The notes under the pieces were generated by a model. The model ran no database searches and had not been told where the DNA came from. It saw only the letters and a list, made by a program, of their open reading frames with translations. Of a DNA stretch of 48,419 nucleotides, positions 5,913-24,358 are shown piece after piece. Source of the DNA: a bacterium. GTDB taxonomy: Bacteria > Patescibacteriota > Minisyncoccia > Ryanbacterales > GWA2-47-10b. Position 1 is the first letter of the stretch. Every line of letters starts with the position of its first letter. The position numbers and the translations under genes were made by a program. The DNA lies in the NCBI GenBank assembly GCA_027624915.1, contig JAQBTR010000005.1:1-48419 (forward strand), in the 5' to 3' direction.

Positions 5913-6275
5913 AAATAAAAAGGCTGGCCTGTGAGCCAGCTTGTCATGATATAAATCCTTTGGGACGCCATCCTTTTTGATAGCAAGGGTCGCACACAGG
6001 AACGTTAACTAGAACGCCATGTTGCTTAGCGATGAGTCAAAAAATCACAAACCTAAGTCTGTGATTTTTTGATTGTGCGCGACTTCAAGTCTTCTATCGT
6101 TATAAACAGTCAAAAAAAGCGTGGTGTAAAACACCAGCTTTTTTGATTGTGCGCGAGAGGAGACTTGGTCACAGCTCTTGCTACGCAAGGCCGCTACCCC
6201 GCCTCCTCATGCCTACGGCATATCGTCCGGCCTTCAAGTCCCCACGCAAGCAAAGCAGTTTGCTTGCTCTCGCTT
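5913..6275 (-). repeat. Decayed tRNA-Leu 3'-end copies, each followed by a hairpin
   Basis: No gene is visible in this stretch. Read on the minus strand downstream of the intact tRNA-Leu, its 3' end recurs: TCGCGCA preceded by AAGTCTCCTC at 6167-6150, and a shorter version at 6091-6076. Each copy is followed by a strong hairpin with a T-tract (6145-6111: GCTGGTG/CACCACGC; 6072-6037: AATCACA/TGTGATT). A last hairpin (5940-5923: GCTGGC/GCCAGC plus T-run) resembles the one directly behind the intact tRNA. Between 6246 and 6267 lies GCAAGCAAA-GCAG-TTTGCTTGC (plus strand), whose AAAGCAGTTT tip recurs at 23564-23573. Confidence 0.7.
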
Positions 6276-6276
6276 A

Positions 6277-6317
6277 CAAATAAAAATGGCTGGCGAAAAG
6301 CCAGACGTTTTTATTTG
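6277..6317 (-). terminator. Terminator of rplS / tRNA-Leu
   Basis: Minus strand CAAATAAAAA...CTGGC-TTTTC-GCCAG...TTTTTATTTG: the outer A/T arms pair over 10 bp around a GC-rich stem, starting one base after the tRNA-Leu discriminator. Confidence 0.7.
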
Positions 6318-6401
6318 TGCGCGAGAGGAGACTTGAACTCCTACGGGATTACTCCCACACGCCCCTCAAGCGTGCGCGTCTACCAGTTTCGCCACCCGCG
6401 C
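6318..6401 (-). tRNA. tRNA-Leu(GAG)
   Basis: An 84-nt class II tRNA. The acceptor GCGCGGG pairs with CTCGCGC; the anticodon arm is CACGC-TTGAGGG-GCGTG (anticodon GAG). There is a long variable arm (TGGGAGTAATCCCG) and a T-arm GGAGTTCAAGTCTCC. CCA is not encoded. It begins 2 nt after the rplS stop codon, so it is probably processed from the rplS transcript. Confidence 0.93.
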
Positions 6402-23278: not shown

Positions 23279-23333
23279 AATTTAGCAAATCAAAAAATCC
23301 TAGGTTTAAACCTAGGATTTTTTGAGCTAAATT
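23279..23333 (-). terminator. Terminator of tRNA-Phe
   Basis: Core CAAAAAATCCTAGGTTT plus its exact reverse complement (23291-23324, 34-bp perfect palindrome). An outer pair, AATTTAGC (23279-23286) with GCTAAATT (23326-23333), reaches the encoded CCA end of tRNA-Phe. Confidence 0.75.
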
Positions 23334-23407
23334 GGTGCCGCGAGTCAGAATTGAACTGACGACACGACGCTCTTCAGGCGTCTGCTCTACCACTGAGCTA
23401 CCGCGGC
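23333..23407 (-). tRNA. tRNA-Phe(GAA), CCA encoded
   Basis: 75 nt. Acceptor GCCGCGG/TCGCGGC, D-arm GCTCAGTGGTAGAGC, anticodon arm GACGC-CTGAAGA-GCGTC (anticodon GAA), T-arm GTCAGTTCAATTCTGAC, then ACCA. Confidence 0.94.
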
Positions 23408-23431
23408 ATTTCAATTGTCCCATGAATATAA

Positions 23432-23608
23432 CGCAGGACTCGGTCACAAATAATTTTTCTAACGAAAAATTTTCTCAGCCCCGCCTCGCGGTGCTCACCT
23501 TGTTCTCCTTTCGGTCGAACAAACTCGCACAACGCTGCGGCCTTCGAGACCCTCTAATTAAGTAAAGCAGTTTACTTAATTAGAGGGTCTCGAACCTGCG
23601 ACATCTTC
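23432..23608 (-). pseudogene. Outer tRNA-Val copy, 3' half, interrupted within the T-arm
   Basis: Minus strand: GAAGATGTCGCAGGTTCGAG (3' side of the anticodon arm to T-loop), then a 24-bp perfect stem with CTGC loop (23594-23571 with 23566-23543). About 100 nt of hairpin-rich insert follows (AAGGCCG...TGTGAC), then the other T-arm half CGAGTCCTGCG (23442-23432). The insert's ends resemble those of the insert at the tRNA-Leu locus (6167-6240). Confidence 0.6.
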
Positions 23609-23623
23609 TTAATCAGTACTTTG

Positions 23624-23705
23624 TGGGCGATGCAGGACTCGAACCTGCGACATCTTCGGTGTAATCGTTAAAAAGACATAACATGTCTTTTTAACTCCAG
23701 CCAAC
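23624..23705 (-). pseudogene. Middle tRNA-Val copy, 3' part, with hairpin after the D-arm
   Basis: Minus strand: TTGGCTGGAG, hairpin GTTAAAAAGACAT-GTT-ATGTCTTTTTAAC (23695-23667), then CGATTACACCGAAGATGTCG continuing to the end of the tRNA at 23624. The anticodon TAC and the whole T-arm and acceptor 3' strand are kept. The 5' strand of the anticodon stem is largely replaced by the hairpin. Confidence 0.65.
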
Positions 23706-23736
23706 CCCCCCCACATTCTATTGCTTAAAGTCTTAG

Positions 23737-23810
23737 TGGGCGATGCAGGACTCGAACCTGCGACATCTTCGGTGTAAACGAAGCGCTCTAGCCAACTGAG
23801 CTAATCGCCC
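23737..23810 (-). tRNA. tRNA-Val(TAC)
   Basis: 74 nt. Acceptor GGGCGAT/ATCGCCC, D-arm GCTCAGTTGGCTAGAGC, anticodon arm CTTCG-TTTACAC-CGAAG (anticodon TAC), T-arm CGCAGGTTCGAGTCCTGC. CCA is not encoded. The acceptor stem continues into a perfect flanking inverted repeat (CTAAGACTTTAA), so the precursor would have a greatly lengthened acceptor helix for 5' and 3' processing enzymes to deal with. Confidence 0.94.
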
Positions 23811-23841
23811 ACTAAGACTTTAAATCTGTCTGTATGTGGGA

Positions 23842-23854
23842 GAGCTAATCGCCC
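23842..23854 (-). pseudogene. Middle tRNA-Val copy, 5' fragment
   Basis: Exact 13-nt match to the 5' end of tRNA-Val(TAC), GGGCGATTAGCTC. It is then interrupted (TCCCACATACAG...) at the D-loop, where the inner unit begins. It pairs through its flank with the middle 3' part. Confidence 0.55.
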
Positions 23855-23872
23855 ACAAAGTACTGATTTTTT

Positions 23873-23934
23873 GGATGTAATCGTTGAAAAGACATGTTAT
23901 GTCTTTTCAACTCTAGCCAAACAGCTAACCGCCC
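23873..23934 (-). pseudogene. Outer tRNA-Val copy, 5' half, with hairpin after the D-arm
   Basis: Minus strand: GGGCGGTTAGCTGTTTGGCT then AGAG, hairpin GTTGAAAAGACAT-AAC-ATGTCTTTTCAAC (23911-23883), then CGATTACATCC. It differs from tRNA-Val(TAC) by a few substitutions and by the hairpin. The stem differs from the middle copy by one compensated pair (A-T to G-C). Confidence 0.65.
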
Positions 23935-23984
23935 ACGAGACAATCGATAACACATCAAGTTTATATATTGTACATATTTTAGAA

Positions 23985-24018
23985 GAAAATAAAAGCGCCC
24001 AGTACAAAAACTAGGCGC
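23985..24018 (-). terminator. Terminator of the small basic protein gene
   Basis: Minus strand GCGCCTAGT-TTTTGT-ACTGGGCGC followed by TTTTATTTT, 16 nt after the stop at 24035. Confidence 0.75.
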
Positions 24019-24034
24019 GAACGAGAAGGGTCAA

Positions 24035-24358
24035 TTAGCGAACTCTCTTATATTGGCGAGGAGGTATTGAATCAGAATAACCAAGCTTTATTGCTAAAAA
24101 TTGAGCACGGGCAAGTTTGGACGTAAAGCGGCGACGTAGGTCTTTGGTGCTACCCAAGCGATCTCTAAAATTACGAAGAACCCCAAGACGCCTGCGAACA
24201 GTATCTTGGTTTGCATCCGTTATTGGAAAGCGAAAAATTGTTTCGAACTCTTTTATTTCGGCGGGTGTGAGCAAGCCTCTCCGAGGCAAAAGGGTTGAAA
24301 CAAGCGTACCTGCACCACTAGAAGTAATGAGGCCAGTAATTCGCTCTGCTATGGTCAT
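24035..24358 (-). CDS. Small basic protein of unknown function, strongly expressed by signals
   Basis: A 107-residue, helical, Arg-rich protein (pattern TPAEIKEFETIFRF, DTVRRRLGVLRNFRDRLGS, FTSKLARAQFLAIKLGY). No signal peptide or membrane segment. Expression signals are unusually good for this genome: a -35/-10 pair close to consensus and a full GGAGGTGA ribosome site 3 nt before the ATG, with a clear terminator. The family is not recognised; the charge suggests a nucleic-acid-binding protein, but that is a guess. Confidence 0.6.
   Translation of the reverse strand: MTIAERITGLITSSGAGTLVSTLLPRRGLLTPAEIKEFETIFRFPITDANQDTVRRRLGVLRNFRDRLGSTKDLRRRFTSKLARAQFLAIKLGYSDSIPPRQYKRVR

Follow-up and report, generated by a model that had tools for sequence, protein, structure and literature searches.

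The DNA analysed here, which we refer to as the window, is a stretch of 48,419 nucleotides from a patescibacterial genome (G000). Its placement in the Patescibacteria (CPR) is based on genome size, on relatives in the class and on the highest-ranking patescibacterial hits; the best hits of a RuvB scan were mixed (Doudnabacteria, Parcubacteria, Clostridia). On its minus strand three copies of tRNA-Val(TAC) are nested, the intact copy lying in the D-loop of a second, and the second lying in the anticodon loop of a third. The features of this locus, and of one related locus in the same window, are the following:

23737-23810, minus strand: intact tRNA-Val(TAC) (ARAGORN; Rfam, 71.5 bits)
23804-23823, minus strand: level-1 inverted repeat, left arm (20 bp, perfect with 23744-23725)
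23725-23744, minus strand: level-1 inverted repeat, right arm (20 bp, perfect with 23823-23804)
23842-23856, minus strand: second tRNA-Val copy, 5' piece, split in the D-loop (sequence reading)
about 23623-23707, minus strand: second tRNA-Val copy, 3' piece, including the hairpin at 23695-23667 (Rfam tRNA, 21.5 bits, sub-threshold)
23667-23695, minus strand: 29-nt hairpin of the second copy, GTTAAAAAGACAT..ATGTCTTTTTAAC (sequence reading; covariation)
23848-23868, minus strand: level-2 inverted repeat, left arm (21 bp, perfect with 23631-23611)
23611-23631, minus strand: level-2 inverted repeat, right arm (21 bp, perfect with 23868-23848)
23873-23936, minus strand: third (outermost, oldest) tRNA-Val copy, 5' half, including the hairpin at 23911-23883 (full-length match of model R1, E 7e-13; this copy was among those used to build the model)
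23883-23911, minus strand: 29-nt hairpin of the outermost copy, GTTGAAAAGACAT..ATGTCTTTTCAAC (sequence reading; covariation)
23586-23610, minus strand: outermost tRNA-Val, 3' part up to the T-loop (sequence reading)
23442-23594, minus strand: T-loop element, a 24-bp CTGC-loop hairpin with an anti-T-arm, followed by a conserved structured core of about 100 nt (homologues downstream of many tRNAs)
23432-23441, minus strand: 10-nt remainder of the outermost copy's T-arm 3' strand, beyond the T-loop element (sequence reading)
6150-6401, minus strand: tRNA-Leu(GAG) (6401-6317), then another member of this T-loop element family (6316-6150) with a copy of the tRNA 3' end

The intact gene (23810-23737) is the only one of its kind found in the genome, and about half of the 20-bp repeat that frames it is its own acceptor stem, which the flanks extend. 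This arrangement had been proposed in a sequence-only reading of the window, and Rfam, ARAGORN and renewed sequence reading confirm both the position of the intact gene in the D-loop of the second copy and that of the whole unit in the anticodon region of the third; the 20-bp and 21-bp perfect repeats were likewise found as claimed, the former extending the acceptor stem. The third copy, which is split after the anticodon, had been described with a 3' half from 23608 to 23432; that half is present, but the T-loop element (23594-23442) interrupts it within the T-loop. A further feature, added to the earlier description, is that in both outer copies a 29-nt hairpin with a 13-bp stem has taken the place of the anticodon stem's 5' strand. 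Among seven copies, which had been picked as hairpins, 11 of the 12 pairs of its helix have changed on both sides with pairing retained. Copies matching the hairpin model R1 were counted from 51-62-nt matches only, because the model also matches ordinary tRNA-Val. Inner and outer tRNA in the window are 96% identical, and downstream of the intact gene lie stretches of 42 and 20 nt that match the tRNA exactly. The 551-nt minus strand folds at -254.8 kcal/mol as compared to -153.5 for shuffled sequences (z -15.4), none of 100 shuffles being as stable. Given these exact matches and the stability of the fold, the nesting is not a product of chance. No open reading frame of at least 80 codons occurs between 23037 and 24035, so that the insert in the window is without an ORF, and simple promoter scans found no promoter.

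A fold of this stability could suggest that the locus is one functional precursor, in which the outer halves are spliced exons or regulatory shells controlling maturation of the inner tRNA. The compensatory changes in the hairpin fit this scenario, as does an insertion near position 37/38, the canonical position of tRNA introns in archaea and eukaryotes. Yet an archaeal-type intron or split tRNA implies joinable exons, and in the window the hairpin replaces the 5' anticodon strand in both outer copies; in another genome (L073) the outer copy is without its 3' half, and outer copies are absent altogether from close relatives. Neither a group I nor a group II intron matched in Rfam, in the window at gathering score or in 23300-24100 at E values up to 5, and permissive searches returned only tRNA and chance matches. 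One locus (L149), in which the split is the sole damage and inner and outer copies are otherwise whole, would by its sequence yield joinable exons. We regard a functional precursor as very improbable. From their sequence, the outer copies in the window are most likely dead, having lost the anticodon stem. The concentric tRNA-like shells of the earlier reading are therefore more probably a side effect of the nesting, or an insulation of the inner tRNA, than functional structures. In the case of insulation, paired flanks and the hairpins of the dead copies would prevent the identical outer halves from pairing with the inner tRNA.

To follow the history of the locus, the orthologous site can be recognized by an adjoining PrsW-like gene and a tRNA-Phe, the PrsW-like gene marking it throughout the order. 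Within the family of the window's genome, the site holds a plain tRNA-Val in G004, a D-loop piece together with a T-loop element in G003, two levels in G001 and three in the window (G000); in the wider order, it is plain in G009, lacks Val halves in G005, and reaches two levels in G008 and three in G007. The plain, two-level and three-level states point to one inherited tRNA-Val gene that has received insertions repeatedly. They bear out the earlier proposal that a tRNA, together with its flanks, has inserted repeatedly into a tRNA, with an empty site in G004 and one to three levels in relatives. Such states also decide against an assembly artefact generated from one tRNA, a possibility that had been named among the grounds for rejecting the earlier reading. 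Although the assembly containing the window is a draft in 31 contigs, the levels differ in sequence, every level is framed by separate repeats, and the same plan turns up independently in numerous other assemblies; we consider the chance of an artefact negligible. Past the outermost copy, the string GGGACAAT..TGAAAT (23441-23408, minus strand; L252) resembles the leader plus trailer of the plain tRNA-Val in G004, and may be what is left of an even older tRNA-Val copy that has disappeared.

The nested plan is not confined to this site. Among 54 relatives matched with the region, most genomes of which yielded at least one tRNA-Val locus, halves of tRNA-Val surround an intact gene at about 14 of the 39 distinct tRNA-Val(TAC) loci in the class (judged by eye). 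Three types of border were evident. Type A retains the 5' anticodon stem, in the form GACTCG-TTTA-TTCA / CCCCGTTAGA..tRNA..TCTAACGGGG / CAAG-C-CGAG (L149, L143, L145, L159); type B shows the hairpin (the window, G001, G007, G008, G026); and type C consists of conserved flanks of about 60 nt with differing tRNAs inside (L002, L066, L184). A further locus (L039) links types A and B. Besides the window and G007, three levels are present at L143, L145, L017 and L030, and in the first two of these the boundaries are identical at every level (TTATTCA / CCCCGTTAGA ... TCTAACGGGG / CAAG-CCGAG).

These borders bear on a scenario without any mobile element, in which template switching or break repair driven by palindromes captured nearby tRNA copies, and selection kept those products that had one working tRNA. 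Perfect palindromes of varying sequence, as seen in the repeats and hairpins, fit such a process, as do the copies near-identical to the inner gene that occur in the window and, at L017, in the outermost level. Against it stand boundaries and repeat sequences that are identical at a given tRNA position, both between genera and inside a single locus, as well as type C flanks that are conserved around different tRNAs. Moreover, inner tRNAs are often unlike the outer ones, with identities of 61-85% in three loci, on account of which the newcomer would often be of outside origin. We therefore judge template switching unlikely.

Other tRNAs of the window's genome carry comparable traces. A fragment of the same tRNA, at least 14 nt long and within 400 nt, accompanies 10 of its 40 tRNA genes, as compared to 3 of 1560 for the flanks of other tRNAs and 1 of 40 for the antisense control. 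Here tRNA-Asn and tRNA-Lys are nested too, tRNA-Ser and tRNA-Met have D-loop pieces upstream, and tRNA-Thr, tRNA-Gln, tRNA-Arg and two tRNA-Leu are accompanied by 3' copies that begin in the T-loop. In other genomes, a tRNA-Ala (L178) and an apparent tRNA-Val(CAC) (L169, reverse strand) lie within repeats of the same kind as at the tRNA-Val loci. The T-loop element in the outermost copy is a hit unrelated to the nested tRNA insertions. It belongs to a family with a structured core of about 100 nt that lies directly 3' of many tRNAs, the tRNA 3' end being repeated behind it and the anti-T-arm varying with the host tRNA; members were seen at L016 (in tandem), L018, L020, L021, L023, L024, L026 and L027. 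The consensus shows both-sided changes at 13 of 27 pairs and matched no Rfam family.

T-loop and D-loop fragments of this kind are direct repeats of tRNA ends and in this resemble att sites. They could accordingly be read as remnants of integrase-type islands, in which tyrosine recombinase elements entered tRNA loops, shrank, and left att-like tRNA fragments behind. Site-specific integration nevertheless yields tandem halves beside an integrase gene and not a whole tRNA between the halves of another; the order in the window is nested, its insert has no ORF of at least 80 aa, and the only type of gene seen in the inserts examined is GIY-YIG, with no recombinase. Collapsed islands thus appear an improbable source.

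Two observations at other loci concern tRNA loops and introns. A tRNA-like gene called as Ile(aat) in the genome of the window (L233, G000 C8) has perfect stems on either side of an anticodon loop that is enlarged (CTTAATCCCAAGAGAATTACGGGGGCAAG), which may be another anticodon-loop insertion. Upstream of the tRNA-Val in G005 (L256), a sequence (..GATGATATAGTCC) that by eye looks like a group I intron at its 3' end is followed by a tRNA 3' half.

The inverted repeats connect the inner tRNAs with other small elements of the class. CCCCGTTAGAnATT repeats were found in 20 of the 54 genomes (one match for the reversed control pattern), where they bound units of about 90-110 bp with unrelated interiors, many of them at start codons, and also GIY-YIG genes of about 280 bp. 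Inverted repeats of the CCCCGTTAGA type are common to some inner tRNAs, to palindromic elements of about 100 bp, and to repeat-bounded genes of about 280 bp, which encode GIY-YIG proteins (Pfam PF01541). These CCCCGTTAGA units are short, repeat-bounded and present in many copies across the class; the repeats of the window differ from them and were found at this site only. Target duplications of 4 bp (TTCA, TGAA, CAAG, CTCG) were read by eye at many non-tRNA repeat copies, and no clean duplication was seen at the tRNA-Val anticodon site.

Other GIY-YIG genes are bounded by other inverted repeats of 11-21 bp. When 30 GIY-YIG loci were picked by protein similarity alone, eight had a tRNA no more than 60 nt away, in each case on the same strand, against about 0.2 expected from tRNA density, and several of the tRNA-adjoining genes sit beside a split copy of the same tRNA. 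At L121 the order is a 5' piece of tRNA-Gln, the GIY-YIG gene, a repeat, intact tRNA-Gln, the repeat again, and a 3' piece of tRNA-Gln; at L130, L135 and L028, a tRNA 5' piece, GIY-YIG and the intact tRNA follow one another; and at L134, GIY-YIG precedes an intact tRNA-Lys inside a perfect repeat and then pieces of tRNA-Lys. At L068, L195 and L210 the gene lies beside an intact tRNA-Val and a dead tRNA-Val with a palindrome as anticodon strand, a lesion of the same kind as in the window. The unit in the window contains no GIY-YIG gene, in contrast to L121, L130, L135, L028 and L068, and of the two such genes in its genome neither is near a tRNA.

The best explanation, to which we assign a probability of about three in four, is that small mobile insertions break an essential tRNA gene and bring along a replacement that is itself a fresh target. 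The observations behind it are the anatomy of the locus, the empty and multi-level states, the recurrence across genera and tRNAs, the repeats common to palindromic elements and GIY-YIG genes, and the occurrence of GIY-YIG genes beside split tRNAs. In this scenario, short non-coding insertions, each with a whole tRNA-Val inside an inverted repeat, would have entered the essential, single-copy tRNA-Val(UAC) gene on at least two occasions, with one insertion splitting the resident gene in the anticodon loop and the next splitting the newcomer in the D-loop. In each round, the newcomer would become the working gene and the split copy would die. An element linked to a nuclease would enter a tRNA loop together with a whole tRNA; because it carries this tRNA the host would survive, and since the rescue copy restores the target, insertion could recur and so produce nests. 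Serial rescue-insertion as such is strongly supported. That a GIY-YIG nuclease cuts the tRNA loops and drives the insertion is a candidate mechanism, to which we would give just short of even odds; for the window, the nuclease would have acted in trans or have been lost. Somewhat more tentative is the complete picture of a natural cleave-and-rescue system, in which tiny GIY-YIG-driven elements cut essential tRNA genes, insert with a replacement, home into themselves and build nests.

If true, this would allow a selfish element to persist within genes the cell cannot lose, by bringing the replacement, and would account for the rings of tRNA fragments around the tRNA genes of these reduced genomes. 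It would also open a route for foreign tRNA genes to supplant resident ones, and offer a source of small tRNA-targeting nucleases as well as a natural gene-drive-like mechanism that is open to in vitro tests.

Among known systems, SegB of phages T4 and T6 is a GIY-YIG homing endonuclease encoded beside tRNA genes; it has been implicated in cutting tRNA-containing sequence and amplifying tRNA segments, and such nucleases are widely co-located with tRNAs in phages (PMC13096335). The likeness lies in the nuclease gene adjoining tRNA genes. SegB, however, acts in phages and not in a patescibacterial chromosome, has no inverted-repeat unit, and leads to head-to-tail amplification via homologous recombination, whereas the nested loci hold a replacement tRNA inside a split one; phage records gave ordinary tRNA matches only, none covering 80% of the query. 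In rRNA genes of CPR bacteria, uncharacterised insertions have been described, some bearing GIY-YIG and some short and without ORFs, with no intron match (PMC11270868). They share with the nested loci the type of bacterium and the insertion into a structural RNA gene, but lie in rRNA, and a replacement copy of the host RNA is not described. With tRNA-integrating islands and in the disruption of archaeal tRNA genes by mobile elements (PMC3293823), mobile DNA likewise inserts into a tRNA, after which both an intact tRNA and a fragment remain; there, the element is of kilobase size with a recombinase, the order is linear, and nesting is not described. None of SegB, the CPR rRNA insertions or the archaeal disruptions is described as bringing a whole replacement tRNA into a split tRNA, and literature searches (subscription papers and preprints being outside their scope) brought up no account of nested bacterial tRNA genes. 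On these grounds we call the architecture new, while the mechanism is unproven; the earlier statement that no described bacterial element of this plan was known agrees with these searches, but the plan is not unique to the window.

Synthetic cleave-and-rescue gene drives inactivate an essential gene while providing a copy that rescues the carrier. The system proposed here differs in being natural and tRNA-based, and in that the rescue restores the target, so that insertion can recur. Palindromic and MITE-like elements (RPE, REP) are short, dispersed, bounded by inverted repeats, and sometimes located inside coding regions. The nested loci are distinguished from these by a whole essential tRNA and by a repeat shared with GIY-YIG genes and not with a known transposase.

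Two further observations concern small elements of the class. GIY-YIG genes of about 85 aa with inverted repeats of many sequence types (L106-L135) are enriched immediately upstream of tRNA genes, and are possibly a general small mobile element of the class. Finally, CCCCGTTAGA palindromic elements at start codons (L081, L097, L101) seem to contribute a new start together with an in-frame N-terminal extension (..ISNGV), in which they are like the palindromic elements of Rickettsia.
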